DNA from: Hysterangium stoloniferum
Taxonomy: Eukaryota; Basidiomycota; Agaricomycetes; Hysterangiales; Hysterangiaceae
Reading direction: 5' to 3'
DNA: 64,000 bases
Assembly (NCBI GenBank): GCA_015178975.1
Contig: WHVD01000113.1
Location: 216,087 to 280,086, forward strand
Part shown: positions 3,579 through 64,000 of the stretch, piece by piece
Layout: every line of letters begins with the position of its first letter
How positions within the stretch are numbered: the first letter of the stretch is position 1
Position numbers and translations under genes: made by a program
Notes under the pieces: model-generated
Database searches by the model: none
What the model saw: only the letters and a program-made list of their open reading frames with translations
Told to the model about the DNA's origin: nothing

Positions 3579-3820
3579 GTAAAAAACACAGCCCTATCAA
3601 TGTAGATGAATAGAATAAAATAAACTTGATAATAATTTTTTTGAATCTTAAATGTAAAGCGTGAAAAAACATAAGAGATCAAAGTCAAAGTCAAAGTCCA
3701 CAAAAAATCCACTTAAAGACTTGAAAGACATGTCAGAACCTCTAAATGCAAAGAGAGACATAGGGTGACAGGGAATAATGAAAATGAGTCCAAACGTAAC
3801 ACGGGGTCCATGGAGTGCAG

Positions 3821-8094: not shown

Positions 8095-10502
8095 GACGAG
8101 GAAAGGTGGCTCTGGGACCGCTGGTCACTGCTTTGTATATTTTTGGTTCGTACACCAATCCTCATAAATTCCCATGATTCATAGACTTGCAGACGCATTT
8201 GAAACCGCCATTACACGCGCTATTCACGACATTTGTTACACTGTTCGAGGACACTGACTGGAGCGTTCGATTAAGCGCAGTATCGGCCCTGGGGACCGTT
8301 TCAGAGTGAGGTGCGCTGTGTAATAATGGGATGTGAATCCAGATATCATTTCGCCAGAGCAGAATTTCGAGGCACCATTGCGGCTGTCATTCCCGCCATT
8401 GTTACACTGTTGAAGGAATCTGAATGGAGTGTTCGATCAAGCGCAGTATCGGTCCTGAGGAACGTTTTAAAGCAGGGTACGGTGTGTGATACTGGGAGGG
8501 GAATCCAGCTGAAATTTGACCACAGCCGAATTTCGAGCCGCCATTGCGGGTGTCATTCCCGACATTGTTGCACTGTTGAAGCACTATAACTGGCAGGTTT
8601 GATCAGGCGCAGTCTCAGTCCTGGGAAACGTTTCAGAGAAAGGTGCGGTGTGATAATGGGATGGGAAACCAGCTGACATTTGACCACAGCCGAATTTCGA
8701 GCTACCATTGTGGCTGCCTTGCCCGGAATTGTTGCGCTGTTGAAGGACAGTGACTTTAGCGTTTAATCAAGTACAGCATCGGTCCTGGCTAAATTTTCAG
8801 CACAAGGTGCGGTGTGATAATGGGATGGGAATTCAGTTGACCTTTGACCACAGCTGAATTTCGAGCCGCCATTGCGGTTGTCATTCCTGACATTGTTGCA
8901 CTGTTGAAGCACTCTAACTGAGGCGTTCGATCAATAACAGTATCTGTCCTGGAAAACGTTTCAGAGCAAAGTGCGGTGTGTGATACTGGGATGGGAATCC
9001 AGCTGACATTTGACCACAGCCGAATTTCGAGCCGCCTTTGCGCCTGCTATTCCCGACATTGTTGCACTGTTGAAGTACTCTGACTCTGAGGTTCGATTGT
9101 ACGCAGTATCGGTCCTGGGGAACGTTTCAGACCAAGGTGCGGTGTGTGATAATAGGATGGGAATGCAGCTGACATTTGACGACAGCCGAATTTCGAGCCG
9201 CAATTGCGGGTGTCTTTCCCGACATTTTTGCACTGTTGAAGCACTCTGACTGGAGCGTTCGATCAAGCGCGGTATCGGCCTTAGGGAACGTTTCAAAACA
9301 TGGTGCGGTGTGTGATAATAGGATGGGAATCCAACTGACATTTGACCACAGCTAAATTTCGAGCCCCAATTGCGCTTGCCATTCCCGACATCGTTGCATT
9401 GTTGAAGGACTCTTCCGTTCGATCAAGTGCAGTATTGGTCCTTTTCAAGGTTTCACAGCAGAGTGCGGTTTGTGATAATGGGATGGGAATCCAGTTGACA
9501 TTTGATCACAGCCGAATTTCGAGCCGCCATTGCGGGTGTCATTCCTGACATTGTTGTACTATTGAAGCACTCCGACTGGAGCGTTCGATCAAGTGTAGTA
9601 TTCGTCCTGGGGAACGTTTCAGGGCAAGGTGTGGTGTGTGATAATGGGATGGGAATCCAGTTGACACTTAATCACAGCCGAATTTCGAGCCGCCATGGCG
9701 GGTGCCATTCCCGACATTGTTGCACTGTTGAAGTACCCCGACTCTGAGGTTCCATCAAGCGCAGTATCCGTCCTGGGGAACGTTTCAGAACAAGGTGCGG
9801 TGTGATAATAGGATGGGCAATCCAGCTGATATTTGACCACAGCCGAGTTTCGAGCCCCCATTGCGGCTGTCATTCCCGACATCGTTGCATTGTTGAAGGA
9901 CTCTGAATTTGAGGTTCGATCAAGCGCAGTCTCGGTCATGGGGAACGTTTCAGAACAAGGTGCGGTGGGGTAATAGGATGGGAATCCAGCTGATATTTGA
10001 CCACAGCCGAATTTCGAGCTGCCATTGCGGCTGTCATTCTCGACATCGTTGCATTGTTGAAGGACTCTGGCTCTGGGGTTCGATCAAGCGCAGTATCCGT
10101 CCTGGGTTATGTTTCAGAGCAAGGTGCGGTCCGTGATACTCGGAGGAGATCCAGCTGACATTTGACCACAGCCGAATTCCGAGCCGCCATTGCAGCTGTC
10201 ATTCCCGACATCGTTGTATTGTTGAAGGACTCTGAAGGGCGCGTTCCATCAAGCGCAATATCGGTCCCGGGGAACGTTTCAGAGCAGGGTGCAGTATGGT
10301 AATAATATAGGAATCGAGCTGACGTTTGACCTCAGCCGAATTTCAAACTGTCATTGCGCTTGCCATTCCTGACATTGTTCACTGTTAAAGCACTCTGACT
10401 ATGAGGTTCGATCAAGCGCAGCATCAGCCCTGGCGAAATTTTCAGAAAAAGGTGTGCGGTGTATGATAATGGGATGGGTATCTACCTGACATTTGACTGT
10501 AG
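5441..10502 (+). repeat. ~166-bp exon-plus-intron tandem repeat array (about 29 units)
   Basis: The repeating unit is a 117-nt exon (from CCGAATTTCG to GAACAAG) followed by a 46-51-nt intron (from GTGCGGTG to GACCACAG). Exons and introns are both conserved between units, so the whole genomic unit was duplicated rather than a processed copy. Units run in one orientation. The series is interrupted once, at 7654-8192, by the C-terminal exon of array A and a short spacer. Unit lengths are very regular; exceptions are 111 nt (5560, 9352), 118 nt (8193) and 116 nt (10336). Confidence 0.9.
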
Positions 10503-18074: not shown

Positions 18075-18438
18075 TGTGGTTGCAATTGACCACCTCGTGC
18101 TAGTGGAAGAGGAGAGGGATTTATGAGGATGTGACAGATGTGACAGCTCATCAGGTGGCGGACTTAAAGACCCTTTAATCTAAATCTTAAAAATTCCAAG
18201 GAGGACGCAGCGATAGATTCGAAGAAGAATGTTCCCAGCATCCCGCGCATCGATGGTCACACCTACTTCTAGGGCCGGTGCAGTGGCCGAATGCATGGAA
18301 TGGCTGTATATACGGCCCGAGATTCTAGGTTAATTGGTGGAAGAGACTTCCCGATCTACTACTATTTCTGGATGTACTGGATGTGGCTGACATTGTCGTG
18401 GCTGTTTTCTCTGATGAGGAGCACGATGACTACTCAGG

Positions 18439-26669: not shown

Positions 26670-27145
26670 GAGCAGTTTTACAAAAGTAAGAAGTTACTAT
26701 CGTAATTTTTGACTGATTGGAGTCATATGACTTTGGTTGAAATCAAAAAACCATTTTGCATTGAGTGATAAAATTCTTCAACATTAATGGCTCTTCTTCT
26801 GTAAACTCTTCTGGTTTATTAATCATAATCTCAGATTCTTTGAGGGAAGATAATCAATCTTTGAGAACCTTTCCAAGTACAGCTCCAAAATGCTGAAACA
26901 TTGTTTCATCCTCAGAAGTAACAAGTTCTGGAGGTGGAGACTTGGGCAGAGATTCTTGTTCTTGAATTGGCAACATTGGAGATTTAATACACTCTTCTTG
27001 AACTTCTTCTGATTCCCAAATTGGTTATGTTACTTGTGGAGTTGTTGGCAACATAGCTTGTCATGTTTTGGTTAACAGTAATACTTGAATTCTTGAGGGT
27101 CAGATAGGTTTTGGCAAAGGAATGGAGGCCACAGATTGAAATGCC
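26670..27145 (-). pseudogene. Gypsy gag N-terminal remnant
   Basis: Minus-strand reading gives TSEDETMFQHFGAVLGKVLK, KPEEFTEEEPLMLKNFITQC and KITIVTSYF, typical of gypsy Gag proteins, with several stops. It lies directly inside the LTR at 27146-27697, which would be its 5' LTR. Confidence 0.6.
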
Positions 27146-27697
27146 TGTTAAGTACTGTGTTGGGAACTTATTCTGGAACTATTGAAAGTGACTGGGAACT
27201 CAGGAACTTCTGGATAGGGTCAGGACATTGGCATCAGCTTATGTGCTGCACCTCTACACAAATACTTGGAATGTCCTTAATTTCAGAGATGGGATTTATG
27301 ACAGAAGATTATGGATATTCAAAGTTCTGAAGAGTTCCAAATATCGAGCATACAGAAAGAAGGAAGGAATTAGAAACTAAGTCAATATCAGATCTAAGGT
27401 AAAGTACAAATTCACAGAGACTAATACATGTATAAGTTCTTTCATTATTGTACTACAAACTAGGATCATAATAAGATGGGTTAGAGTAAGTATTCTGAAA
27501 TGGGAATACAACAAACAAATGAATGAATACTTGTCAACTGACAAGTTACCAAATGTGGAACAAGGAGGGGGTTTGGAAGTACAGGAACTATAAATGTTCC
27601 ATAGTCGGAAGTCAGGTTGGAAGTCAGGTTGGAAAGTCAGGTTGGAAAGTTACAGATAATTATGGAAGCTTGAAGTATTCAGGAACAGGTCATAATA
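27146..27697 (-). mobile_element. Gypsy LTR, CpG-depleted copy 2
   Basis: TGTTAAGTACTG to TCATAATA, aligned throughout with 61874-62458. Gag remnant on the left and accessory-gene remnant on the right show it could serve as the 5' LTR of one element and the 3' LTR of another, as in a tandem LTR array. Contains a GTCAGGTTGGAA short repeat at about 27603-27650. Confidence 0.8.
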
Positions 27698-27884
27698 GTA
27701 CCCCACTGTTAGGCTGAAGTCCCATAGAGGTGATTAGGTACTGAGTGTTGAACCATCAGTTATCCATTACAGTATGTGTCATGAAAAAATGCATGTTTAG
27801 AAGTGAAGAGTTTTGGCTGCTGATCTGAGTATAAAAACTTCCAAATATTTAAATTGTGATTTTCCTTTCTTTAACCATGACTTG

Positions 27885-28245
27885 CATGTGCATTTCCCAT
27901 CCTTTGTTTACCACCACTCTGGAAAGTTCAGATACCAAGATTGCCAAAATTGGCAAAATGTCAAAAGCAGAAGAACTTCAATAAAAATAACAGAGGATAG
28001 AGGAGGTAAGATGACAACAAGAGGAGGAGGCAAAAGAGTTAATGTGGGAGTTGAGAGAGGTGGAGGAGGCAGAAAAATGGGAGTTGGAGCAGATTGAGGT
28101 GGAGAGAAAGAAAGAGGAGCAGAGGAAGGAATGGTTGCAGAAAATGGTGGAAGATTGGAGGTTGTGGGATGAGGTGGAGATGGCAGGATGCTGAGGCAGA
28201 AGAGTAGAGGCTAAAAGAGAAATGGGATGGAAAAGTGAGTGAACC
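27885..28245 (+). pseudogene. Accessory antisense gene, remnant of exon 1 (copy 2)
   Basis: Nucleotide-level match to exon 1 of the copy at 62643: the initiation region (TTACCACCACTCTGGAA versus TCATCACTACCCTGGAA), then a purine-rich coiled-coil coding stretch. Frame is lost through indels and the sequence ends at the LTR fragment beginning near 28255. Confidence 0.6.
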
Positions 28246-28254
28246 AGGAATGTT

Positions 28255-28735
28255 CCATGTGTCCGACACTCTCAGTCTCTGACTCTCAGCCTCCGACACT
28301 CTCAGTCTCCAACTCTCTCAGTGTCCGACTCTCTCAGTGTCCGACTCTCTCAGTGTCCGAATCTCTCAGTGTCCGACTCTCTCAGTCTCTGACTCTCTCA
28401 GTCTCCGACTCTCTCAGTCTCCGACTCTCTCAGTCTCCGACTCTCTCAGTCTCCGACTCTCTCAGTCTCCGACTCTCTCAGTCTCCGACTCTCTCAATCT
28501 CCGACTCTCTCAGTCTCCGACTCTTGGTCTCCGATCCCTCAGCCCAACCCTCAACTTATCCTTCGGTTTCTGATCCGTAGTTTACCGCGAGGTTTACTCG
28601 ACAGGACTAGTTTCTGCCTGCCCAAAATTTAAGGACACCCGATGGTAACTTGCGAGGGTGCAGCACATAAGCTGAAGCGAAGTCCTTGCGATCGGTCCCT
28701 GTCAGCCTACCAACATCCGTCAGTTTCTGTTCTTA
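28255..28735 (-). mobile_element. LTR containing an expanded 16-bp minisatellite
   Basis: On the minus strand it starts TGTTAAGAACAGAAACTGAC at 28735 and follows the 11580 LTR (GGGACCGATC, GCTTCAGCTTATGTGCTG, GTGTCCTTA). From about 28530 leftwards it turns into a tandem array of the 16-mer CTCTCTCAGTCTCCGA (plus strand), about 16 units, down to about 28255. Because 16 is not a multiple of three, the array produces long spurious open frames rich in Ser and Leu. Confidence 0.75.
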
Positions 28736-29282: not shown

Positions 29283-29958
29283 ATAACACTGTATTGACTA
29301 TCAAAGTACAATACAGGTAAAAAAGGTGATTTGTTACCATAAGCAACTGTAAGGCAGCTGGAGGCCATTAATATGGGGAATAGGAATTGAATTTCAGACT
29401 GAATAAGTCCAATGAAATGGGATAAAGGTAAGGGTGGTTCACAAGAAAGAATTGAAAGGTGCAAGGAGATGTTGGTAACCATGAGTGAGTTGGAGTGGTG
29501 AGATCTGACCTTCAACTGTAAGTATGAAGCTAAGAGTAATATGCAAATTTTAACTTGTAGCCATTTGAGATGGCTGAGATGATACCCCAATCATGGCTTG
29601 CAGGACACTTCAAAAGGGTGTCTTGGGCAAGTTGTGGTTATGGGGTAAAAGTGTCTAAATTCCAAGTTATGCCCACTAGTGTACACTATGTTCCACAAGA
29701 GTGTATGTACACACAGGTGTACATAGATCTTTGAATTAATACAAACTAATATAAATGAAGAATACCTTACTTTAAAAATAGTAGAAAAATAAGAGAAAAA
29801 TATGGGAAATATAATACAATGAAACCACTAAATTTCCTAGAGAGGGGTACCCCTCACAGCACCTGACCCTCAAAAAAACTTGCAAAAGTTTCCTTGGCCC
29901 TTTCGAGATTATATCACAAGCTGGCTCACTTTCTTCAACTCTCTGACTTCCTGATAAT
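29283..29958. other. No gene seen; transposon-derived spacer
   Basis: CpG-poor sequence with short open frames and no recognised domain, between an LTR and a gypsy integrase end. Confidence 0.45.
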
Positions 29959-30297
29959 ATGGAAACAGTCCACCCTGTTTTCCACATTTCCATGTTGGAA
30001 ACTTGTGTTCCTAACACTATCTTAGAATGTATTCAACCTCAGCCTCCTCCAGTCATTATCGATGGAGAACCCAAATTTGAAGTTTCCAAGATTTTAGATT
30101 CCAAGATTGACAATTACTATCACACCTCTAAACTGCTTTATCCAGTCAAATGGGCAGGCTATGAAGGTACTGATGAGGAAACTTCCTGGATACTGGCTAT
30201 GGAACTTGGTCATACTATGAAACTTGTACTCAACTTCCACAATCCTTACCCTAGTAAACCTGGACTTTTATCATCACTTCAACTTCCAACATTCTGA
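29959..30297 (+). pseudogene. Gypsy integrase C-terminus with chromodomain (copy 3)
   Basis: Reads HPVFHISMLETCVPNTI, PPVIIDGEPKFEVSKILDSK and LLYPVKWAGYEGTDEETSW, which match the corresponding part of the copy ending at 3821. Everything upstream is missing. The stop lies 84 nt from the end of the convergent accessory gene at 30381. Confidence 0.8.
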
Positions 30298-30380: not shown

Positions 30381-30797
30381 TTAATTTAAATTTTCCTTCA
30401 AAGTCTCCACTTCTCTGAATTTTGGCTCCTCAGCTACAATTTCCATCTCCTCCTGAACCTCATCATTATTTTCTGGCCTCCTCTGAAACTCCATCCTTTC
30501 CTCAAGCTCCATGATGACTCCATTTTCCAACCTGGAACCTTCTCCTCCCAGCTCTTCCCATGTATATTTTTCAGTCACTGCCATAACACCAATACTGACC
30601 ATCGCCTTTTCCAAGATCTCATTCTGTCTCCAGAATTTTTGATCTATTGCCCTAAAACCCTGGATCTGGTTATTGACCATCACTTCCCATACTTTCAAGA
30701 ATTCTATGGCAATTTGAAGCATGACATTTACATTCTCCTGCAGAAGATTCTCATCATGAAGATCACACATCTCCTGTGTGCTAGGGCTAGTTTCCAA
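30381..30797 (-). pseudogene. Accessory antisense gene, 3' part (copy 3)
   Basis: Minus-strand frame with FRAIDQKFWRQNEILEKAMV then SIGVMAV, matching FRSLVRNFRRQNDFLEKIMV / SIGVITV of the copy at 62643. It is followed by the same acidic tail pattern (EVQEEMEIVAEEPKF...VETL against EVQDMVESAEIAEEPE...SETL). The zinc-cluster exon is not recognisable upstream. Together with the integrase end at 29959-30297 this repeats the tail-to-tail arrangement of the other copies. Sequence from 30800 to 31400 is unassigned. Confidence 0.7.
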
Positions 30798-31408
30798 TGC
30801 TCTGGTGTTGAGAGTTCAATTGGAAAGTAACCTATATGGCTATAGTTTCAAGTCACATCACAAGCACAAATTCCTATATATACTTTGGCACTCAAGACAA
30901 CTTCTACACAGCCAAATCAGTTTCATCAATCAGACATGCAAAATCCCTAATGGAACTTGAAGAAGTAACATCTTGATTCTCTTCATACTCAGACATCATA
31001 CATGAGCCTGAACCAGCCTATTCATACTCCTCAAAGAAACCATTGTAACCTCCATCAAAAAGGTATTCAATCCACATATGCTCCAGACAATCCTGTCTTT
31101 ATTTGTCTATATAATAACTCCCATGAACTCTTCCACTATCAATTCAATCGAGTACTCTGGCGAGAGTGTTCCCCACCAGCATAGGGATTCTTTTATGAGG
31201 CAGTGTTCACTCCAGTAGGAGATCATAGAGGACCCTCATTGAGGATGTTCCCAGTTCCAGAAGGGAGTCAAGTAGAGCCTCGTTGAGGTCATTGTTGATT
31301 TATGTTCCTTGCATGGTTGTGGAGCCTACTCACCACCTGGTTTTAATGTGGTGATTGATTGCATGCCCCCCTTTATGCTGCAAGATTAGGAACAGAATGT
31401 CCAATCTT

Positions 31409-37000: not shown

Positions 37001-39120
37001 TCGTGACACCATTGTATGGCAGACAATGGCATCCCAAGAATTAGCTACACACAACCAGATGACGACATGACACTGCCCCCAGGTATTGTGGACAAAAGCA
37101 AAAGCATGCGACTCAACAAAAAGTAGACACCAAAATAATAGGAAGAATATCAGACACATTGACCCTACTCGTCGCAATGCCCTCCGTAGAAACTCAAGAC
37201 TTTGAGACAGAATTGTCTGGTCAGCAATGGCTATGAATCACAACCAATAGCCAACTACTTCCAATATGATACTGGCCCCATGCATGGTAATCTACAGGAG
37301 AGACATCAGCGGAGAGAAGCAAAGTGAACACTAAGTGGAGAGAAAAGAGAAACAACCATAACAAGCCTTTATAACCTTTGTAGTGCCTCTATTCTGGTCT
37401 GTCATCATGGAGGCTTTAGGGCCCTGTCAATCAGTGGGCTCATGTATGCAATGCAAGGGGCTCGGCCAATGATGGTCTAGAATTATTTCGGAAAGTGGAT
37501 AAAAAAAATCAAAAGGGGGTTTATTATGCAAAAGAAAGACAGGTGTCAGTTTATGAGAAGGGGCAAAAAGGTGTCTAATTCAGTTTCCCGAATGGGGATC
37601 CAATTTCTACCTAAAGTGATTCTAAAATCAAATGCGGCCGAAATAACATGTTCGTCACCTGTAGAGTGATGAAAGTCTGAAGGGATGGTGTAATAAATCA
37701 TTTTCCAGCTCGTAAAATCACTTAGGGCTTTCGATTAAGCTTTGAGAAACTGTTCCTTGATAAAAGAAGTTCTGCAGTGTACATTCCGCTCCGAATTTAA
37801 GGTCACATTAGATACTCTCAGTGTGTCTCGATGAAAAAATACAACAATTGGGTACACATAATTAAAACTAAGTAATTCATAGGTCCACTTGCTACCGAAT
37901 CGGCCGTTCATGTTCTCCTAACCTGTGCTCGAGAGGTCCTTCGTCCTACTGTATTAGCAGCAACTTGGCGAACTATTATTAGGTGGCTCACCACTGCTCT
38001 TGTTGTGGATATGGATGGATACTTAGGGCTTCCGATACGGGATGGAGTTCTGGGCTACTGCTATACAAATTAAATGGAATTAGAGTCATGTGAAAGTGTG
38101 CGACTTAGTTCGTTGTACGTCATTGTGATGAAGCAGAACACCATTGTTTTGCTAAGCCTCCTAATGTCATGATCCATGCTATGCTTTGAATTTCAAACGC
38201 CAAATCACATCACGACAATGAAGGGGAAAGCCCAAGATCTGGTGACCATCGCTTAGTGTGTCTGCGTTTTAGCCTTCTTTAAGCTTTTGTTTAGTTCTCG
38301 TTCCTGAGCCTGGGCCATCGGTGTGGCTACCACAACCTCAGATGTCTTACTCAATAATAATTCACTGAGGACTAGTATTTATCTTCTTTAATTTGTCTAT
38401 AAAATCGCCCTGTAAGCTTGTCCAACGTTGAAATGAGTCGGAGTTGTAGGAATCTGGTCGTGTCAGCCAACGCCTGTGTGTGTTTGCCACATGAAGCTGA
38501 TCATCAATAGACTTGTAAGCCCGACTGTGCATGCATCATCACCCTGATTCACACGTCTCAACGATTCCATAGCTCCACTGGTAGATAAGCATGCAGCGCC
38601 AATGACACGACCATTTGCTTCTTTTCTAGCACCTAGCCCTTTCAAAAACGTGTTCTCCTCATCCTCATTTGTTCCGCATCCCGCATCCCCTTGATTCGTT
38701 TTCGTTGCCAAATATTGTCCGGATGGAACGTTAGTGCAGATGTGACAAAGCCAATGGCATAGTGGCGGTCACGGTAGTGGTTGGAGCAACTCTACTTGCC
38801 ATTAGGTACCAAGCATGCATACACAACTATGTAGAAGTTTAAAGCTTTCAGCCCAAGATATATTGACATAGCCTTGTGAATTTATCCTTTTGTCATTGCA
38901 AATACTAGTACAAAAAAAGTAATGTGCAGTATCAAGACACAGTTCTTCATATTAACAAAGGCTTGTCATCATTTAAGCACCATCGTGGCCAAATTGAGGA
39001 AGAGTGGCAACAATATTGATTTGGCGCTACCATCTGTCGGTTCAGAACTACTACTACTACATAATTGACATTTATTTTTATAATAATATCGGGCTCAAAT
39101 TATGCAATTTGCGTGCTGGG
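34079..39120. other. Five kb with no recognised gene
   Basis: Short open frames in all phases, no splice-linked coding chain and no transposon domain that I can name. A 13-base C run lies at about 34234-34246. Composition is mid-range with few CG dinucleotides up to about 36400, then more CG from about 36650 onward. Probably decayed repeats plus intergenic DNA. Confidence 0.4.
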
Positions 39121-39123
39121 AAC

Positions 39124-39957
39124 ATTCTTCTTTGAATCTATCGCTGCGTCCTCCTTGGAATTTTTAAGATTTAGATTGAAGGGTCTTTAAGTCCGCCACC
39201 TGATGAGCTGTCACATCTGTCACATCCTCATAAATCCCTCTCCTCTTCCACTAGCACGAGGTGGCCAATTGCAACCACAATGAGCAAGGACCTCGCCATC
39301 CTCAGTTCGCACCTCTCGACTCTCTTTGAGGCTCGCTCGGTATCTCAACAGGAACTAGATCCACTTGTAGCGTATGCAATACAAGAACCGCGGGATGATC
39401 GGTCGCTGGATACGTGCCGTGTACAGTGGGAGTATTTGTTGAAGAATGTGGCGTTTAAATTTGCTGTGAAGTTGATTTGCCTTGGTTTTTGTTGTGGCAT
39501 TTTTTTTACTTATTAATGTGGTGGCCATGGTGGATAAGGCGACAGAGGGAGAGGCGTTGAAAGAGTCAGAGATTAGATATTTTGATGATTTGAAGTCGAG
39601 GTTGGATTTGGTACTTGCATTTATGGAACACAGTCCGTTGCTCATTTTTCTTGCTTCTATTATGTGTCCATTCTTACATTTATATTTTTCCAGATATCTG
39701 TGACAACTCGTTCCCGTTTAGTGTTCTAGAGGATCTACTGGAAGGGCAAACAATTGAATCATGCTGGCATATATTTTCATGGATTGAGGAGCGTACGGAA
39801 CGATTAACCACTGTGAGCACCCAGACATCAAAGCTAGGACACCTGCTAAAAATACAAGAATAGAACATGATACCCACCAAAGGCAAATCCCTAGTCCTCC
39901 TCCACACACTGAACGACCTCCTCCCCTGTCTCTCAAAAACAGGAAAGAATACTATTG
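39124..39957 (+). pseudogene. Partial duplicate of THO1: promoter, 5' leader and first four exons
   Basis: Aligned with 18229-17410 (minus strand), including ~150 bp upstream of the ATG at 39280. It encodes [15 protein letters not shown] with leucine at codon 54, where the main copy has TAG. The first donor is altered (GTGAAG instead of GTGAGT), the acceptor TTAG has become TAAG, and several CG sites have become TG or CA. It ends at GTTTTTGAGA/ACAGGAAAG..., where a mariner fragment begins. It cannot make a full protein. Confidence 0.85.
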
Positions 39958-40271: not shown

Positions 40272-40744
40272 TTTGTTGCAATGATAGTTTCAAAATAGTA
40301 TGCAACACAACCCTTAAATGAGTTGTTGGCTTGTGTGAGATGATGGACTTACCAAATAAGGACATGGTGCCTTGTGGCTGTGCATGCAAGAAGGTATGCT
40401 GTTGAAGTATATTATATAATATTTTCAGAAATTTAGAGAATTTATTTCTTGAGGAATAAACATGGTTGGAATGCTCCAACAACGCAGCTGGTATTATTTG
40501 GCACTATTGGATCTACCCAGAGCAGTCATATTGATATTAATGATGCTCCTAATGATATGTGGTTGAAACTGTACCAGCCAGGCATATTCTACTTGTACCT
40601 TTTGCAAGTGTCACTCTCATATACAGAGTAATTGCCATCTTTAAAAATTTGCACAGAAGCAGGCATTAAAACAAGTAGAGCAGAAGAAGAAGAAGCATAA
40701 AAGGAGAAAGATAGCCAAAGCATGTATGTACTAGTGTCTCTGAT

Positions 40745-43700
40745 AAAGTCTCAGTAGATAAACAGCCAGAGTCTGCTGGAAATGCAAGTGCTTGCATTCC
40801 TGATCTTTCTGATACATCTTGTGCTCTCCTTGTTCATGCTAGTTCTGATAGGACAGCTGACACAGGTGCATTTTCACAGATGACACCACATCATCACTGG
40901 TTTTCAAGCTATAAGCCTTTTCAAATTCCTATCCAAGTTGCAAATGGACATGTCATTATGTCTGCAGAAATAGAAGCTGTGCAGTTTGAGCCTAAAGGCA
41001 AAGGCAATATAACATTGGAATTTGAAAGAGTTCTCCATGTTCCCCATCTCACAAGCAACCTACTTTCAGTCTTGTACTTGACAAAGAAAAAGAACTTCCA
41101 TGTTTCTATCTTTAGTTCTACCATGTCTTTTTATCAGAAGAAGGTTTTGCATTTCACTGCAACAGTCAATGAACATAATCAGGCCTATTTGGATGGAATT
41201 ACAGTATCTATGATGGATTATGCTGGTCTTGTTACAACCTGTCCACTAGATTCTACACTTTGGCATCATCATTTCAGTCATCTGAATCATGCTGATGTAA
41301 AGAAACTTATGACAGGAGACTTGGTCACTGGTATTCAGATGGACTCTCAGATTGCTCCAGATTCTATTTGTGAACTTGCTTAGCTGGTAAACAGAATAGA
41401 TTGGTTAATAAGATGGCTACAACACACTACACTACACCACTTGTACTCATTCACAGTGATGTTCATGGTTCTATTCACACAAACTGTAGAAGGATTTCAC
41501 TACTGGTAACTTTCATTGATGATGCCTCATGATATACTGCCACTGCATTACTGGAAAATAAAAGTGATGCATTTTGGGCATTTAAGCAATATAAGGCCAA
41601 AGTAGAGAATATCTTTGGTCAGAAGATCAAGATCTTTAGGGATGACAAAGGTGGAGAATATATGTCAAAGGAATTTGATACTTTTCTTTCAAATGTATTA
41701 GTCGGCAGCATACTGTCTGAAATGAGCCTTACCAAAATGGTGTGGCTGAATGCTTTAATAGGACATTGGAAGAAGGAGCTACTTCCATATGGCAGAACCT
41801 CATCTTTCTCCTTCTTTTTGGGGACATGCTGTCCTTGCAATTACTTATGTGTGAAATCGCTCACCTACTGCTCTTAAACACTCTGTGCCCTACACTGTTT
41901 TCCATGGCAGTAAACCAGATGTGTCACAACTCAGAGTATTTGGATCCACTGCCTATGTACATGTGCAGAAGGATCAACATATTGGACTTGGCTCTCATAC
42001 ACAGAAGTGTGTCTTCATTGGATATCCTCCAGATTATAAGGGTTAGTTATTTTACAATCCATTGACTAAGAAGACAATAATTAGCAATAATGCTGTTTTT
42101 GATGAGAGAGTCTTACCAGGACTATCCAAGCAGACTACACTTCCTCCTCCTCCTATTCCTAAGGCTTTTCCTAATAACCAACAACTCATTGATATGTTTA
42201 TTCCTGGGTCTACTCAGGTGGGAGTTGATCCCAATCAGGTGGGAGCTCCACAGGAACCATATCAGGTGGGAGATGATCAGGGTAATGCTTTGGCTCCTGA
42301 TTCTGGCTCTAACTCTGATTCTGTTTCTGAGCATTCACCAAGTCCTCCCCCTCAACCATGTCTAAATCCACCCAGAAACAGAATTCCTCCTAAGTGTTAC
42401 CCTGCCAACATCCACAACTATAGAGAACCTACTCCTGTAGTTGAGTCCAGTGATGAAGCAGAGGATTCTGTACCAACTTCTCCTCAACCAGTTGAGTCTG
42501 AGGAGGAAGCTCTAGGTGCCAGTGAAGGAGATCTTTATATCTCTGTAGATGAGGCCTTTGAGTTTGCTTACAAGGCTAGTGCCAATGATAATGCACCTAG
42601 AACTCTCAAAGAGGCCTTGCAAAGTCCTGATGCTGACAAGTGGTATGATGCTGCATATGCTGAAATGCAATCTTTGCTTGAAAATGGCACTTTTCGCCTT
42701 GCCAAATTACCTGAGGGTCATAACGCTATTGGCTCTCATTGGGTTTTGTAATAAAACCTAAAAAGGATGGCTCAATTGACAGGTTCAAAGCTTGACTTGT
42801 TGCCAAAGGCTATGCACAGTGACCAGGGTTTGATTTCACTGATACCTTTGCTCCTACTGCCAAATGGGCCACCTTGCATGCTGTTCTAGCTGTGGCTGCA
42901 TTATAGGATATGGAACTTGAGAGTATAGATATCTCTTCTGCATTCTTAAATAGTGAACTCGAAGAGGAAGTGTACTTGCAACAACCTGAGGGCTTTCACC
43001 AAGGTGCTCATGATGAGTTTTTACTTTTCTTGAAGGGACTTTATGGTTTACATCAATCACCACATATCTGGCACAAGAAGTTGAATGCTGTCTTGCTCAG
43101 TGTAGCTTTCAAACAGGTACTATGTGATCATAGTATCTGGGTCTTCCAAAAGGGTGACGTCAAAGTCATTATACCAGTATTTGTAGATGACATGACTATT
43201 GCATCCAAATCCAAGGAGGCTATCAAGAAGCTCAAAGATGATCTAAAGAGCCACTTCAAATTGCATGATCTTGGTCCAATTACTTACTTATTGGGTGTTG
43301 GCATTGAAAGGGACAGGACGAAGAAAATCATTACTCTATCACAGCAGCAATACATTTTGGACATGTTACAGCGTTATGGTCTTGCTGATTGAAATCCAAT
43401 TAGTACACCTATGGTGCCTAACTTGAATTTAAGTAAAGACCAGGCTCCAGTGTCCCCTGAGGAGATTGCATATATGAAGGACATTCCATACATCCATGCT
43501 GTTGGGTCTCTTATGTATTTGGCTGTTGCCACTCGGCCAGACATCACTTACACTGTTGGTGTATTGGCTAGATTCAATCACAATCCAGGAAAGGCTCATT
43601 GCCTGCTATCTCAAAGGCACCCTTGACTTGGGTTTGACCTATGGCCCTAGTAATGACAAAGAACTATTTGTGTCCTATTCGGATGCTGATCATGGAGGTG

Positions 43701-54862: not shown

Positions 54863-57800
54863 ATGACTACGGGCAAGAATCAAACACCTAGGCCTTCATC
54901 AATGCCGAGTAGCTCCATGCCTCGTCAAAAATCTTCTAACCTAGAACCACCCCGTAACGTCACTCTGAGGAAGTCTTCGTCGACTTTTCAAGGATCAGCT
55001 CCTCCGGAGGATTCCCCCGGAGTAGTAGCTGGATCGTCAACGAACATTCCCCCCAATCCACCTGAGGAACGCTCATCACTCGAGCAGTTGGACACCCCTG
55101 GAGTTAACGTTGAGCCTAATCGAGCACCCACACCCGTTCTCAGATTCCCTCCAAGACAGGTCATCCTTAAGCAGTTCCTCGGAGGTCATATGGTTTACGC
55201 CCAGCCCATCAACTACAAATGGGATATATACTACACCGATCGAATCCCCGAGGATCAGGTTACCCCCTTTGTGGAGGAGTACAGTACGGATTACCCTATT
55301 CTACTGGAGACTGTAGCAGTCTGGTTAGGGCGTTATCAAGCGATTTTATCGGCGCGGGATTTATTCACGCGACCAGGGAACCTTGAGGATTTAACCCAAT
55401 CGATTCCTGAATGGTCGAACGAGGTGACGACCACTATGGAAGGAGGAAGAAGAATTCTCAGGCGGGAGGTGTTTTCTCTGTTCCTTGAAGCACTTCGTAC
55501 GCATGATGATGTGTTGCAGATCCTGCATGTCCTGCTTAGTGGAGATCATGTTGTGCCTAAGGTTGACTACCAGTACATGTACATCCGTATGTTGGAGGAG
55601 TCTCTCAATGGAGTCATGCCAAATCTATCGCTGGCATACCTCACTTTAAGGGGTCGGTTGAAGCGAAACTAAAGAAGACTTGATAAGATGGTTTTAGAGG
55701 TACTCCTCCCCTATAACGACTCGATCCAGGTCCCTGATTCGCCTATCTCCACGACCAATTCGTTCGTTTGCAACTTAAACGGGTCCCCTGATACTCATTT
55801 TCTGCATTCTCTCAACCGTCCCATAATATTGGAGGATTTTCCACTGGACTTGAGGATGCAAGTGATAGAACGCCTTCAGGAGAAGAGGATTGAGGTCTGC
55901 ACTCCCTTCCATCAACCCCAGCCATGTCGACTTCTGAACACGACGGAGATCGAGAGACAAATCGCGATGGAACCAGGCCTAACGTCTCTCCAGGGATATC
56001 ACCGCTCTCGTGTCGCATTTGAGAGAGTCTCCAACAGCCCTAACTTCAGGAATGAAGTGACCACTCTCAGAAACTGATCAGTCGCCAACAAGGGTCGACC
56101 GTCCTTCTCCACGGCATTCACTGAGGGCATAGCTGGCCCAGTTGCTGGTCGAGGATCGCTTAATCCAGACGGTCCCCGCCATTCTCTACCGATCGCTTCA
56201 AACCCTTTCTTGCCATCAGGAGGACCCCCTAGCGATTCATCTGGGAGTTCGAATACTTCAGACCGGGGAGGGAACTCAGGATGTGGGGAGTGCTACAATG
56301 GAGTGCCTAATACCCCTTTTTGAACTCCGATGCGGTCTCGAGCTAGCGTGCTTATTGACGACTTACCTAAGGACAAGAAGGTCACTCTTAACACCAACAA
56401 CCTTAAGATCAAATGGTCTGATCTCCCTGAATACGACGGAGCTCAATCCGAAGCCCTGGACTATATCATGGACATCATGAGTCTCGCAGAGATATCAGAC
56501 TCTATGAGTGCGATCTTAGGAGTTGCTCTGCCAAGACGACTCAAGGGGCACGCTAAGGTCTGGTGGAGCACCTTAGACCGTGAGCATCGTACTGAATTCG
56601 GTCAATCTCATGGGTCGTTTCTTTGGGGTATCGTCGAAGGATTGCTTGGAACTCGTTGGCGTGAATCCTTAGCCTTAGAATGGGAAGCTATGAAATTTCG
56701 ACAGGCTGGTCACGATCATGAGACACCCGTCCACTATATCCAATGGAGAGTTAAACTTTATCATTTCCTGCACGGGTTCCACCAGGACAGAGGGGATGAG
56801 ACACGCAGACTCATTCTCACGCTTCCTACGGAATGGCTCTACCTTCTTCAAGGACAACCCATCGATGATATCATGAGTTTACAGACTTATGCTAATAACC
56901 TGCAAGAAGCTCTGATTAACGCTTGGGTCCAAACACACTGGGAATGTTACAGGTTCCAGAAACCACGCGTAATGTTATCGGAGGGTCAAGAATTGGATTT
57001 TAGAGTCACCGGCAACTCCTCTTCACCTAACCATATTCTCGTTAGTGAGACTAATGAGAGAGGCTCGACGAGAAGGACCGTTCCGGACGTCGCTGATCCA
57101 AAACAGGGAAAGTGTCACGGAAAAATGTTCTTCGAGAGGAGTAACAAGAGGAGTTCGGTCAAACCCACCAAGGAATGTTGGATATGTGGAAGTCTGGAGC
57201 ATTTTAAGATAGACTGCCCTCAAGCTGGCAAAATGTCTCATTATGTCTCTATCAACAAATGCTCCACACAGGATATGTCGGAGGAAGCTGAGGAGCAAAG
57301 GTTATATGAAGTGGTTCATGGACTATCTATACAAGGACAAGTAAATAGCTCTGATGACGAATTGACTTTTGTTTCCATTTATTCGCCCCATGACGGAGAC
57401 AAATTAGTGAGGGAGGAAAATCGAACGACTGGTGAAGCTCTTCCATCTGAAGCTTATGTATCCATACTCGCCGCAGATTTCTTCGAAAAAGGAGACCGGC
57501 TGAGTGCTCATCGGCAGGACCTTGAAGGCCTGACCGAGAACTACTGTCAGACTGGAGATTCTCATGAACAAATCAGTTCAAATTCGCTCTGTTCGCCTGG
57601 AGCTGATGTTGACACTTTCCCGTTTGATCCCGGGAACCCCCCCGATTTACTACCATACGAGAACTCGGATTCAGAGGACAGCGACGATGATCCAGTATTG
57701 GATTCCCCTTCGAAGCATGTTCCTTGCTGAAGTGAACCCAGGAACGTAAGCTTGTCCCTGCGCAAGGAAAGTAAGAGGCCTCAAATCCAATACCCTCGTC

Positions 57801-60800
57801 CCAGTCATCTGATGAAGGAGGATACTACGATCATTTATCGAAAACGGGATCCTCCCAGTGGTTACTCTAGCATAGGAGTTGCAGCGCTCCATGTTTTTGG
57901 TCATGTAGGAACTCCCGATTCACCCGAACGCGTTAAAATTCGAATGGACACGGGAGCAGATCTTTCCCTTATATTGGAGGAATTCTACAAGGAGCTGCAG
58001 GGCATATATAAGTTGAAACAAGGACTCAAGTTACGTCTAATCCAGCTCACGGGTAACGCTAAGGTTATCAGATATGTTAATATTCCCATTTACCTGGAGG
58101 ACGACAGTGGAACGTTACTGAAGTTCGCGGCAGAAACTTATGTCATTAGAGGAATGACGGTGCCAATTCTTTTAGGAGAAGACTTTCATATTAATTATGA
58201 AATTGGTACTCTAAGAGATCAGCCGTTGGGATCTAGACTTATTCTCCCGGGACGACAGGGTTTTATTCCAGCCAGTTCTTCTAAGGAACCTCAACCTTTG
58301 ACCTTCACCGTCAATAAGGCCCCTTTCGGGAAGCATGAGAAGGAGTCATCCAAACTCACCTCTCTCCCCGATAAAGGTGTGCGTACTGCAAGAGTCACGC
58401 GAGCCTTGGAGGATTGCACTATCGATCCAGAGTCAGCCAGACTAGTGCCTATTTTTGTTGAAGATCTAGAGGGCGATGAATGGATTGTTGAAGGAATTGT
58501 ACTGCAAAATGAGGACGGTTCGATATTAGCCACACCAATCATGGCAATTTCAAGGAATAGTGCAGCAGTACCTTTAGCCAATCCATCGCTAACCCCTAAG
58601 ACTATCCGACGAGGGGAGACAATAGGGATAATTCATGACCCCGCTCGTTGGGCTCACAAGCCCAGGTCACTCGAGGAGAAAGGTTTAATGGTAGCAGGCG
58701 CGACCAAGATCGCACACCTTATCGAAAGTCTCTCTCAACTTGAGGAGGACCGTCAAGTCGCCTCAGAAAGGCCTAAGCCACCTGTTGAACCAGAAATTGC
58801 GGACGATTTCGAACCGCCTGGTCCTAAGACGGCTTCAGTGGCTGATAATGAGAAATTTGCCTCAGAGGATCTTCACAAGTTAGTCAATTTGGGACCGGAT
58901 ATACCAACAGAGGTCCTGCCATGTCTCAGATCAGTTTTGACTGAGAACATTAAGGCTTTCGGAGTCGACGGACAGTTAGGGCAAGTGGAATGTAGAGTCC
59001 CTGTCCCCTTGAAAGAGGGAGCTTAGCCCATATCCATGCCTATGTTCCCTTCGTCCCCTGTCAATAGGAGAGTTATAGACGAGCAAATGGATACCTGGTT
59101 CGAACAGGGTGTCATTGAGCCATCTAAAAGCCCCTGGGGAGCGCCAGCCTTTGTAGTATATCGCAATGGTAAACCACGGGTGGTCATCGACTATCGGAAA
59201 CTTAATCATCTCACTGTTCCAGATGAATTCCCTTTACCATGTCAATTGGAGATTATGCAGGCGCTGTCGGGGTCAAATGTTCTTTCTTCTTTCGATGCGC
59301 TAGCCGGGTTTACTCAATTAGAAATGTTGGAGGACGATAAGCCCAAAACAGCCTTTAGATCCCATAGAGGGCTGTGGCAATTTAAAAGGATGCCATTCGG
59401 GCTCAGAAACGGCCCCTCCACATTTCAGCGCGTCATGCAAACAGTTTTAGCACCCTACTTGTGGATTTTTTGTTTAGTCTACATCGATGACATAGTCATA
59501 TTCTCTAAGAACTGGGATGATCATTTGCTTCACCTGAATCAGGTGCTTGGCGCTATCGCTTCGGCCGGTATCACTCTCTCTCCCAAGAAATGTTTTATCG
59601 GATATAATTCAATATTGTTATTGGGTCATAAAGTATCTAGGTTGGGTTTTTCAACCCACCAAGAAAAAGTTCGCGCTATATTGGAATTGGCCCCACCCAC
59701 TAAGGTTTCTGATCTACAACGGTTCCTTGGAATGGTCCTTTACTTTTCAGCATATATACCGTTCTATTCATGGATGGTGTCCCCTTTATTCTCACTCCTA
59801 AAAAAGGGAACACCCTGGACGTGGACTGCTGAACATGTCCGAGCTTATGAGGATGTTAAAACCACATTAGGATCAGCTCCAGTGCTGGGACATCCAGTTA
59901 GTGGGATGCCCTACCGATTGTATACAGACACTTCAGATTTTGCCTTGGGTTGTTGCCTCCAACAAGTCCAGAAGATGGCTTTAGGAGACTTAGTGGACAC
60001 TAAAATCTATGCCCAAGCCAAGTTGGCTTTTGACCGTGCGCAGGATGTGCCATCCTTTGTTCATCGGTACAAAACCAAACAGCCCGAGATTGAGTGGTCG
60101 GATTCGTGGGGATCCACTTTTGAGGCGACCGAAGTTACTGTTGAACGAGTCATTGCATATTGGAGTCGCACGCTGAAAAGTGCTGAGCGGAACTATTCTG
60201 CTACTGAACGGGAAGCATTAGCAGCAAAGGAGGGACTAGTCCACTTTCAACCTTTCATTGAAAATGAACATGTTCTGCTCATTACGGACCATGCAGCTCT
60301 GCAATGGGCTAGATCTTACGAGAACACTAATCGTCGACTAGCCACATGGGGGGCGATATACGCTGCATTTCCAGGTCTCGAGATTTTGCATCGAGCAGGG
60401 AGAGTTCACAGCAACGTGGATCCACTGTCCAGACTCCCTCAGGTACCAGCCTTCGTGAGCCCTATTAGAGATGATTTGCAGGCTATCACCTCGACCTCTC
60501 TGGACAAAAGTACTGAGGAAAAACTATGGAAGGACGAACCGGCTAAGAAGGTGGTCTTCTCTACCATACTCGATTCTATGGAACCTTTCGGAGTAACTCA
60601 AAAGGTCCGACAGTCAGAATGGGATTCTCATAACGCAATAAGGAACGACCAGGAAGACGAGTCTGACTTCGCATTGTGTCATCCTCAGCTACTAATCAGC
60701 ATCGAGGAGGGATATATAAAGAAATTTCTAGAGGGTTATTCAAAGGACCCCATTTTCAGGAATCTCTATGCTCTAGATACCCCTTCACCCAACGTGGTTG

Positions 60801-61879
60801 TTACTCCTTCTCACTACTTCGTGGGAGCAAACTGACTCTTGTACTTTCGCAACTCAGACTGGAAAAGTCGAGTCTGTGTACCCAGAACTATGATTAACTC
60901 GATTCTAAGGTTGGTACATGATAACCCTTTTGAGGGAGCACACGCCGGAGGCCAGCGGTTGTTCAACCTGATGAAAGATCGGTTCTTTTGGCCAAGAATG
61001 CTACAAGATTGCGTGTCGTATGTGCGTACCTGCGACAACTGCCAAAAAACCAAAGTCGATCACACCGCTCGTCAAGGAGCCCTCAGACCGGCTGACGTAC
61101 CTTTTAGGCCATTCGAGGTAGTTTCTATGGACTTAATCACTGGACTACCCGATTCAGGAAAGGATTCGTATTCCGCAGTCTTCATCGCTGTTGATAAATT
61201 GACGCGTTGCGCTATTACAATACCTACCTTTTCGAACCTTACGGCTGAAGGAGTCGCACGAATATTTGTCAAACAGGTAGCAAGCCCCTTCGGACTGCCC
61301 TCTCGAATAATCTGTGACTGGGATAAGAGATGGACCTGCAGGTTTTGGCGGGAAGTCTGTAAGATCTATGGTACCACCCTTGCGGTATCTTCGGCTCATC
61401 ATCCTGAAATGGATGGGCAAACGGAGAATATGAATGTGACCATAGAACAGATGCTTCGAGCCTATTGTGCCTCTGCTAAGGAAAGCTGGTCCCAGTGGAT
61501 TGAGGTAGTTGTTCACGCATACAACTCGACTGTTCACAGTTCCACAAACTACGCCCCGGCCTTCTTATTAATGGGATACCTTCCAAGAGGAATGTCTCGA
61601 GTCCTAGGAGGTGACGAACCCCTAGTTCCTAGAGAACGATCAGACAGCCCTATGGCCGACCAATGGATCCTCGAGCTAGAAAATCATCAGCAGATGGTGC
61701 GGGATTCAATCGCTCGAGACCAAGAGATTCAAGCACGAGCGTATAACAAGAAGCAAAGACCTGTAGAAGATATCTCTGAGGGAGACTTTGTATTGGTGAA
61801 CCCCCACTCCCTCGAACTGGTGGAAGTCAAGGGAACGGGGAAGAAACTAATACAAAGACGGATTGGACCATTCTGTTAA
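54863..61879 (+). pseudogene. Ty3/gypsy gag-pol in one frame with six internal stops
   Basis: From ATG 54863 to 61879 one frame (2339 codons) runs without a frameshift, interrupted by stops at 55670 (TAA), 56075, 56321, 57728 (TGA), 59024 (TAG) and 60833 (TGA). Domains: Gag with a zinc knuckle CWICGSLEHFKIDC (codon ~772), aspartic protease MDTGADLSLI (~1028), reverse transcriptase LVYIDDIVIFSKNWDDHL (~1540), RNase H YTDTSDFALG (~1690), then integrase with HHCC zinc site (HDNPFEGAH ... CDNC, ~2020-2060), catalytic Asp in MDLITGLPD, second Asp in ICDWDKRW and Glu in GQTE (~2186). No chromodomain is reached because the frame ends at RRIGPFC, exactly where the LTR at 61874 begins; the final TAA belongs to that LTR. 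CpG content is much higher than in other transposons here, so the copy is young. Confidence 0.92.
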
Positions 61880-62458
61880 GTGCCGTGTCGGGAACTTATT
61901 CCGGAACTATCGGGAAGTCACCGGAAAGTCGGGAACAACTAGATAGGGTCAGGACGTCGGCTTCAGCTTATGTGCTGCACCTCTACGCAAACGCTCAATG
62001 TCCTTAATTTCGGAGGTGAGACTTGTGATGGGAGTTATGGATATTCAGAGTTCTGAAGAGTTCCGAATATCGAGCGTACAGAAAGATGGGAGAAGGAATA
62101 AGAAACTAAGTCAATATCAGATCTAAGGTAAAGTACAAATTCGCGGAAACTAATATAAGTCTGCTCGTTATTGTACTACAAACTAAGACCATAATAAGAC
62201 GGAAATGGAAGTGTTCTTAAAACGGAAATACAATAAGACATATTAGGAAGGCAATATTCCATAACAGGAATATAACAAACAAACAAGTGAATACTTGTCA
62301 ATGGACAAATTACCAAATGCGGAACAAGGGAAGAATGCGGATGATACGGTAACTATGATGTTCCGTAGTCGGAGGTCAAAGTCGGAAGTCGGGGATCGGA
62401 AGTCGGGAGTGGGAGACCGGAAGTCGGATATTGAAACATCTGGGAACGGGTCGTAACA
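61874..62458 (-). mobile_element. Gypsy 3' LTR, CpG-rich copy inserted into the gag-pol above
   Basis: TGTTAAGTGCCG to GGTCGTAACA, 585 bp. On the minus strand a GGGGGG purine tract (GGGGGGTACTG) precedes it, so it is the 3' LTR of the minus-strand element whose integrase enters at 64000. Contains short GGAAGTCGG-type repeats at 62370-62430, the region expanded in the 28255 copy. Confidence 0.88.
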
Positions 62459-62642
62459 GTACCCCCCTGTTAGGCTGAAATCCCATAGAGGCGATTAGGT
62501 ACTAAGTGTTTGAAGCGACGGCTGATTGTTATGTGTCGTGAAATTTACGCAAATATGGAGGTGAGAGTTTCGGCTGTTATTCTGAGTATAAAAACCTCCA
62601 AATATTCAAATTAACGTTTTTGTTTCTTTAACCACAACTTGT

Positions 62643-63782
62643 ATGTCGATTCGTCGGCCGTTGTTCATCACTACCCTGGAAGACTCAGATACCGAAATAC
62701 CCGTACTTCAAAAGATGTCGAAGGTCGCAGAACTTCAACAAAAACGCCAGAAAATGGAGGAGTTGAAGCGACGACAGGAGGAGGAGGAAAGAGCGTTGAT
62801 GCAGGAGTTGAAGGATGTGGAGGAGGCGGAAAAGCGGGAATTGGAGCGGGCGAAGGCGGAAAAAGAAGCATGGATACGGAAAACGGCGGAGGCGCAGAAA
62901 AAGAAAGAGGAGGTGGAAAGATTTCAGCGGGAGTCACAGGTGGTGGAAAAACTGAAGGAGATAAGGGAAGGAAAGGTAAGTTTGACCCATACATTCCGTG
63001 ATTCCAACCGATAACTATTGATGCAGCGAAAAGCCGTGCAGGTGGACGTAGAGGGCGAAGCTGGACCTTCGAGTCCTAAAGTGAGTGTATCTGTAACGGA
63101 AACGGTAGTCGTTTAACTTCCGAAACAGAAACCAAAGGTCAAAGCTCCGGAACGAATGGAAGTCGTCCACGAAACTCCGTGTCATCGATGTTCCATACGG
63201 AACATGACGTGTTGGAAACAGAAGGTAAAATGGGCGGAACTTGCTATCCCTGTGCGGTTCTCAAACTTCCGTGCACCCTTGCCTCAAAAAGGGTTCCGAA
63301 AGGTGAGAAGACTCCGAAAACTAACGACGCGGGAAGTTCAGGAGCGGCCAAAGCTACGGAAACTGAAACGTCGAAAACGGATAGTACAGGCATTGAGCTT
63401 CTCAAGGAAACCGTCGACACGTTGGTTTTTATCGGGACGGAAGTCATGAAAATGCGGGATACAATGGATCGTCATAATGATATCCAGGAGAAAGGTTTCC
63501 GTTCGTTGGTCCGGAATTTCCGGAGGCAAAATGATTTCCTGGAGAAGATAATGGTTAGCATTGGTGTAATCACAGTATCCGAGGGGTTTTTCCGATAAGG
63601 CACGGGAAAAAACCAATGATCCATTGGCGAATGTGTTGAAAAGAGGTGGGTGTCGGAAAAGGCCGGAAGAATCAGAGAGTGAAGATGAAGAGGTACAGGA
63701 TATGGTGGAAAGTGCGGAAATTGCTGAAGAGCCGGAGGTTGGGACGGAAGGTGGATTTGGGGTGTCAGAGACTTTGAGATAG
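62643..63782 (+). CDS. Accessory antisense gene: coiled coil plus Zn2Cys6-like cluster (copy 4, best preserved)
   Basis: Exon 1 (62643-62975, 111 codons) starts MSIRRPLFITTLEDSDTEIP and continues as a strongly charged coiled coil (QQKRQKMEELKRRQEEEERA). Exon 2 (63027-63080) is an acidic linker ending GPSSPK. Exon 3 starts at 63129 (KPKVKAPERMEVVHETPCHRC) and encodes C-x2-C-x6-C (CHRCSIRNMTC), a ten-residue loop, then C-x2-C-x6-C (CYPCAVLKLPC). A second helical region follows (FRSLVRNFRRQNDFLEKIMV), then an acidic tail ending near 63782. Introns 62976-63026 and 63081-63128 have GT...CAG borders at the same positions as in copy 1. A one-base deletion near 63222 shifts the frame inside the cluster, and a TAA at 63596 interrupts the tail. 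The gene ends 93 nt from the convergent integrase stop at 63876. Not a known gypsy protein; nucleic-acid binding is an inference. Confidence 0.75.
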
Positions 63783-63875
63783 ATTTAATAATATTATTAT
63801 TTTTTGACTTGCAAAACCTAAAAACGAAGTGTGAAAACGGAAGTGTCGGAAACTGAGCAGAAAAGAACAGAAAGA

Positions 63876-64000
63876 TTAGAGTGATGATAAAGGTCCGGGT
63901 TTGCCTGGATAAGCCGTGTGGAAGTCAGTAACAATTTCCATAGCATGTCCAAGTTCCGTGGCCAATATCCATGAAGTTTCCTCGTCGGTACCTTCATAAC
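63876..64000 (-). pseudogene. Gypsy integrase C-terminus, continues beyond window
   Basis: The reverse strand reads the end of the chromodomain-bearing tail (EETSWILATELGHAMEIVTD ... KPGPLSSL then TAA), aligned with 3821-3950 of the copy 1 integrase but retaining CG sites. Open as far as it can be read. Confidence 0.8.

Follow-up and report, generated by a model that had tools for sequence, protein, structure and literature searches.

How can a gene with introns persist on the antisense strand of a retrotransposon, and what might it do for the element that carries it? The locus that raises this question lies at the end of the stretch of DNA analysed here (the window), 64,000 nucleotides from the ectomycorrhizal false truffle Hysterangium stoloniferum (Agaricomycetes, Phallomycetidae) that correspond to C17:216087-280086 of a 111-Mb assembly, the contig stopping at window base 64000. 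The original prediction placed a three-exon gene antisense to the integrase of a gypsy element, between the integrase stop codon and the LTR, and such a gene is indeed present at 62643-63782 on the plus strand. Exon 1 (62643-62975, 333 nt) encodes the N-terminus with a coiled-coil-like stretch, exon 2 (63027-63080, 54 nt) an acidic and serine-containing linker that begins with RKA, and exon 3 (63129-63782, about 654 nt) a basic stretch, a six-cysteine cluster, a putative second helix and an acidic tail. The introns between them (62976-63026, 51 nt, and 63081-63128, 48 nt, both on the plus strand) each have GT-AG borders, lie in phase 0 and contain an in-frame stop. A TATA box (TATAAA, 62587-62592, +) precedes the ATG by 56 nt, and beyond it lie the polypurine tract (62459-62468, -; AGGGGGGTAC on the sense strand of the element), which is conserved among the aligned copies, and the LTR (61874-62458, -; TGTTA...TAACA), which is the 3' LTR in the orientation of the element. 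On its other side the gene faces the 3' end of pol with the chromodomain (63876-64000, -), which is cut by the contig end, and 93 nt separate the two stop codons. The insertion follows the sequence CATTC within the integrase of an older gypsy element; this host occupies 56324-61873 (+) with gag-like, protease/RT and integrase frames, the last of which ends at IGPFC.

The copy of the gene at this position (copy 4 of the window) does not read through: exon 3 carries small indels, between the cysteine triads and near the exon end, which put the two triads in different frames. The same insertion is open on contig C135 (locus L041; the window copy is L011), with an identical 5' flank of more than 100 nt from the older integrase. 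Since the contig ends at window base 64000, the indels may be assembly errors, and the shared flank on C135 likewise suggests an assembly error, the two loci possibly reflecting a second haplotype or an assembly duplication. A 1-kb sample taken about 12.6 kb upstream on C135 (L086) is not near-identical to the window.

The C135 locus (C135:878500-888499) provides the whole element. Its LTRs (130-718 and 7080-7668) are 96.6% identical (K2P 0.035) and are flanked on both sides by CATTC, a 5-nt target duplication. Two open frames on the minus strand encode a gag of 420 residues and a pol of 1239 residues, in which Pfam recognises Retrotrans_gag, RVP_2, RVT_1, RNase H, Integrase_H2C2, rve and Chromo, the last at 27.0 bits against a cut-off of 25.1. 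The locus thus combines the gag, ordered pol, C-terminal chromodomain and LTRs of a Ty3/gypsy chromodomain element (chromovirus). The antisense gene (903-2045) is open, encodes 347 residues and lies inside the LTRs, and in a second copy (L042) with LTRs that are 98.1% identical it is also open, with pol broken up. As in the class of antisense frames termed aORF-3R, the gene is on the opposite strand, between pol and the 3' LTR, in most copies and with conserved sequence. Because it lies inside the LTRs with the target duplication in L041, and beside pol in all 34 aligned rows, the antisense gene is, by its sequence context, an integral, element-borne accessory gene of a chromodomain Ty3/gypsy lineage.

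How regularly the gene accompanies the element can be judged from the pol end. A 33-nt pol-end pattern has 184 matches in the genome, compared with none for a reversed control, and the first 100 were examined. At 85 of these a listed match to the gene lies on the right strand, 298-660 nt away. Fourteen of the other 15 were fetched, the last (C224:33) sitting at a contig end, and with one fetched stretch (L062) also cut by a contig end, 98 testable pol ends remain. The gene runs along the whole fetched stretch in L060, L061, L065, L068, L069 and L070; L057, L058, L059, L063, L064 and L066 keep both gene ends around an internal deletion; and L067 retains the 3' half of the gene, with other sequence between it and pol. 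The six deletions are confined to the antisense gene, and their end points all differ. Hence the gene or a remnant of it is found at 98 of 98 testable pol ends among the first 100 of 184, and members without the gene are not among them, only the six with internal deletions and the one that is interrupted. Nor was the gene seen to occur mainly outside gypsy elements among the loci fetched. The deletions tell against a strict need for the gene in each copy; they would be compatible with a product acting in trans.

The sequence of the gene itself has been maintained in the family to which copy 4 belongs (family 4). We aligned 34 rows, the 30 best gene matches together with L041-L044, which represent 32 places (L012 is L041 and L032 is L042). 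An uninterrupted frame from ATG to stop is present in 20 of the 34 rows (18 of the 32 places); ten rows carry one to three stops, three are frame-shifted (L022, L036, L043), and L031 is open as far as the contig end that truncates it. Splice sites and cysteines were counted in 31 rows, with L012, L032 and L038 left out: GT-AG borders are found in 30 of 31 for intron 1 and in 30 of 31 for intron 2, and 29 of 31 have the complete cysteine motif, all but the window copy and L022, so that a loss of the cysteines across copies was not borne out. In 12 pairs the dN/dS of the antisense gene is 0.18-0.37, while the same pairs diverge by 11-36% in the introns, by 1-8% in a 177-nt promoter stretch and by 1-11% in the LTR. 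Control frames +2, +3, -1 and -3 give 0.74-1.81 (7 of the 12 pairs), and frame -2 gives 0.29-0.41 (7 pairs). The latter is a shadow, since its third positions coincide with those of the gene frame and every one of 29 copies has 4-6 stops in it; across the non-gene frames there are 4-20 stops per copy. Changes relative to L041 number 538, 495 and 1004 at codon positions 1, 2 and 3 (31 rows). When at most three mismatches are allowed, 31 nt of the gene sequence match the genome at 124 sites, compared with none for the reversed control. These counts, the kept introns and the dN/dS values with their frame controls show that the gene is not a product of chance, and the substitution pattern indicates that its reading frame is kept by purifying selection on the protein. 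Three public hypothetical proteins of Hysterangium stoloniferum resemble fragments of the element gene (P0001, P0002 and P0003; BU17DRAFT_80596, BU17DRAFT_86143 and BU17DRAFT_99611), and the models of P0002 and P0003, which may be prediction only, have the same junction between exons 1 and 2.

The gene is not confined to a single family. Copy 1 of the window (2615-3613, +, the end being approximate; exons 2615-2940, 3006-3062 and 3111 to about 3613) belongs to a second family (family 1, at least 150 scored matches), whose homologue has the same three exons and a cluster of the form C-x2-C-x6-C-x9-C-x2-C-x6-C. The layout of three exons and two introns is common to both families. Copy 1 retains each of these exons and the cysteine cluster, yet with stops and frame shifts that mark it as decayed, and the integrase/chromodomain part of its element lies beside it at 3821-5257 (-). 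A TATA box lies 59-60 nt upstream of the ATG in four of four family 1 loci, and among 18 loci GT-AG borders are found in 16 for intron 1 (not covered in L052, altered in L075) and in 18 for intron 2. L071 alone has every exon uninterrupted, and this count of one in 18 is biased low as the loci are those nearest to a decayed query. The low intact fraction is evidence against general upkeep of the gene in family 1. At 294 residues, the protein encoded by L071 shows 31% identity to its L041 counterpart; the two agree best over exons 2-3, where both have the pattern GKRKA...SP.K..APxR...C..C..RN..C...CYxCAxLKxxC. By comparison, pol shows 81% identity between the families over its C-terminal half, and their LTRs have common stretches of only 31 nt and 12 nt, their promoter stretches none. 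From this gradient it follows that gene and LTR either diverged together or were exchanged as a block. In a decayed third lineage (L084), five of the six cysteines are found in one frame.

Not all of the copies first reported in the window hold up equally. Four had been described with the same arrangement, and the whole layout is present in two only, copies 1 and 4. Copy 2 (27145-28179, +) consists of an LTR relative followed by a decayed exon 1 (27886-28179) only, and copy 3 (30384-30803, -) of the 3' part of exon 3 only, adjoining an integrase relative at 29861-30278 (+); the cysteine cluster was not seen within 30384-30803. Similarly, the distance of 84-93 nt said to separate gene and integrase applies to family 4, where all 34 aligned rows have 83-94 nt, and not to family 1, in which the gap is about 207 nt in copy 1 and 209 nt in its intact relative L071. 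The window has further repetitive content: a short tandem repeat (SDSLSLRLSQSP...) at 28200-28560 directly after the decayed exon 1 of copy 2, a long array of repeats of about 166 nt (families D1-D3) at 5568-10320 that is perhaps a satellite, an inverted pair of about 842 nt with 95% identity (17400-18240 and 39114-39955), and frames at 40715-42751 that by eye resemble part of a copia-type polyprotein.

What kind of protein does the gene encode? The assignments of coiled coil, helix and nuclear signal come from visual inspection of the sequence. In the L041 protein residues 25-110 are charged and heptad-like, as in a coiled coil, and basic stretches (KRK at 111-113 and KKPKVK at 129-134; KRK and KKARK in family 1) flank the exon 2/3 junction. 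Residues 147-178 contain the six cysteines, spaced C-x2-C-x6-C-x10-C-x2-C-x6-C and followed by a helix-like stretch, and the tail (286-347) has a net charge of -12. The Zn2Cys6 domain (PF00172) is characterised by six cysteines in two C-x2-C-x6-C triads at a canonical distance, a pattern that occurs in the 29 of 31 family 4 rows with a whole motif and, with x9, in family 1. Thus the part of the Zn2Cys6-like designation that concerns cysteine spacing stands, whereas formal membership does not, the reported scores of 10.1-14.2 bits falling short of the PF00172 gathering cut-off of 21 bits. Zn_clus is the only family reported for three of four cluster pieces (11.3-14.2 bits), and it matches four of the six members of profile A2 at E <= 1 (best E 0.0043); two reversed control sequences matched other Pfam families at E 0.033 and 0.65. 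The formal Zn2Cys6 label was rejected on account of these sub-threshold scores and the similar E-values of the reversed controls. Over the whole genome of the fungus, PF00172 has 52 matches. Searched at whole length, the protein has no Zn_clus match in Pfam at E <= 1 and only sub-cut-off matches to DUF3744 and Borrelia_P83, and its only NCBIfam match is likewise below cut-off. Nor was any match of the profile to PDB structures significant, Hpc2 (E 0.13, chance-like) ranking ahead of Ppr1 (0.39) and Leu3 (0.40). In two of the scanned pieces the best stretch matched the first triad to the second half of the profile, and the order of the triads may accordingly be swapped. A homology search with region 120-347 returned none of 471 candidates at E 0.001, profile A2 returned one of 466, and profile A3 two among 8000 candidates scored at E 0.01; all three profile matches in the collection searched are Hysterangium stoloniferum fragments. 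We therefore call the product Zn2Cys6-like; its cysteine spacing is what points to zinc and DNA binding.

A possible target for such a protein lies close by. Zinc-cluster factors favour CGG triplets, and a CGG-rich repeat array, with 7-nt spacing in part, is found at the start of U3 (62331-62458, +; 579-718 in L041). In gene orientation, the last 140 nt of the LTR hold 11 CGG compared with 5.4 in shuffles, none of 500 shuffles reaching 11, and theirs is the only 140-nt stretch with at least 10 CGG in the 64-kb window (sampled every 20 nt), in a test conceived after inspection of the sequence. The length of the array varies among 13 copies from 3 CGG (L043) to 13. CGG is in excess throughout the element, with 122 in gag-pol against 74.4 expected (z 7.4) and 35 in the family 1 LTR against 22.3, and for this reason we rejected the array as proof of self-binding. 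That it is a zinc-cluster target is speculative, a lead only.

Taken jointly, these observations show that the element carries a conserved antisense accessory gene, and they make an explanation reasonably probable in which this gene is expressed and its nuclear, zinc-binding product would regulate the element in trans. In such a scheme the TATA box that lies past the polypurine tract, ahead of exon 1, would direct initiation by RNA polymerase II, and the host would splice the antisense pre-mRNA. The sense genomic RNA would be unspliceable at these sites, so that reverse transcription would restore the introns in each copy. With less assurance, the product may dimerise through the coiled coil, the basic stretches near the exon 2/3 junction may bring it into the nucleus, and the six cysteines may hold zinc, the protein binding DNA or chromatin and regulating the element in trans. 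Regulation would perhaps proceed via the CGG-rich array: in the 5' LTR this array stands at the very start, and in the 3' LTR it immediately precedes the antisense promoter. That the introns persist because only the antisense RNA can be spliced is a sound inference: being removable only from that RNA, they would persist through retrotransposition of the sense RNA, and all fetched loci were free of intron-less copies. For the function of the product, regulation of its own LTR is plausible and our best guess. It is tempting to go further and propose that an antisense zinc-cluster regulator recognises a family-specific CGG array in U3 and that a single feedback loop thereby sets the sense and antisense output of both LTRs. 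The HBZ arrangement of HTLV would then have been invented independently here, the introns would serve as a lock that permits expression from antisense RNA only and brings the gene back intact at each reverse transcription, and the regulator would have diverged with the LTR in each family; we put this forward tentatively, as a scenario that may well prove wrong.

It is conceivable that the antisense protein acts after transcription and not on the LTR, in the nuclear entry of the integration complex or, with the chromodomain integrase, in the choice or reading of target chromatin. The basic stretches and the zinc-cluster-like motif do suggest a nuclear protein, the gene has been kept beside the chromodomain end in both families, and nuclear import is offered as one role for such proteins in the relevant passages of PMC7264820. 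However, the gene has diverged with the LTR and not with pol (31% for the gene, a near-unrelated LTR, 81% for pol), which fits LTR recognition better, an argument and not a test, and we consider a post-transcriptional role unlikely. Alternatively, the antisense RNA might be what matters, pairing with the sense RNA, feeding RNA silencing and limiting copy number, with the frame incidental. The gene faces pol across 83-94 nt, so transcripts could overlap, and a silencing idea is raised for plant elements in a passage of PMC7264820. The low dN/dS, the excess of third-position changes, the freely diverging introns and the kept cysteines nevertheless bespeak selection on the protein, and a role of the RNA alone strikes us as distinctly improbable, although RNA and protein functions could coexist. 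The original prediction had also allowed for a passenger, and a captured host gene without a role for the element would have introns that show its origin as a normally spliced gene and would explain the few copies that have lost parts of it. Yet purifying selection (dN/dS 0.18-0.37), the presence of the gene or of its remains at every one of the 98 testable pol ends and a homologue of like layout in a second family all disfavour a simple passenger, no better-matching stand-alone host gene appears among the matches listed and inspected, and we rejected this reading as very improbable. An annotation mirage, in which the gene would be the shadow frame of a sense-strand feature, draws on the similarly low dN/dS of frame -2 and can be practically discounted, given the stops in that frame, the values of the other control frames, and splice sites, a TATA box and in-frame intron stops that fit the antisense strand only.

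A protein-coding accessory gene that may regulate its element in trans can be set beside several known systems. In HTLV-1 and HTLV-2, HBZ and APH-2 are spliced antisense genes, and, in the part of the source that describes them, the likeness extends to a position at the 3' end of a retroelement, their products being nuclear factors that act on their own LTR (PMC3185765). By the same account HBZ differs in belonging to a retrovirus, in encoding a bZIP factor and in starting transcription in the 3' LTR, with exon 1 in the LTR (PMC3185765), whereas the ATG and TATA box of the Hysterangium gene are inside the element, past the polypurine tract. The likeness to HBZ and APH-2 would be an analogy of layout only, and homology is not claimed. 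With zinc-cluster factors of the Gal4, Ppr1 and Leu3 type the product has in common the six cysteines C-x2-C-x6-C-x9/10-C-x2-C-x6-C and weak profile matches to Ppr1 and Leu3; unlike in those factors, the cluster scores below the Pfam cut-off and lies mid-protein, after a coiled-coil-like stretch. We found no description of a spliced zinc-cluster-like antisense gene in a basidiomycete chromodomain element in the titles and abstract openings of open-licence papers. The kind of gene is already known, also in a fungus: the LTR element Boty of Botrytis cinerea carries an antisense gene, brtn, according to the passages in which it is mentioned (PMC8365987, citing Zhao et al. 2011; PMC7264820), and as far as these go both genes are antisense in fungal LTR elements, the host of Boty being an ascomycete. 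Antisense accessory genes between pol and the 3' LTR are also described, in excerpt, for Grande (gene23), RIRE2, Retand (TRP28) and PvRetro13 (PMC7264820; PMC11963269). The product of gene23 of maize Grande is said there to be nuclear, and the gene to have a promoter of its own (PMC7264820); for the Hysterangium gene, the conservation of the TATA box and of the promoter stretch points to a putative promoter of its own. For TRP28, DNA binding is predicted (PMC7264820; PMC11963269), and antisense TRP28 frames are given for 97% of Retand clusters in the section concerned (PMC11963269). Like those of Grande and Retand, as these sources portray them, the Hysterangium gene is antisense, between pol and the 3' LTR of a Ty3/gypsy element and in most copies. 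The likeness is one of description only, the other elements residing in plants, TRP28 being presented without a named zinc cluster, and the region between pol and LTR measuring about 1.4 kb here compared with 2.9-6.6 kb in the Retand copies reported. The function of antisense accessory genes of LTR elements is called unknown in the corresponding passage of PMC7264820. The Hysterangium gene occurs in hundreds of copies in a single genome, is under purifying selection, keeps its introns and TATA box, and comes with a motif that resembles a metal cluster and with a candidate binding array in the LTR; the element thereby renders the question of an antisense regulator directly testable, and it adds to these systems a clean example of an intron-bearing gene that persists in a retrotransposon.
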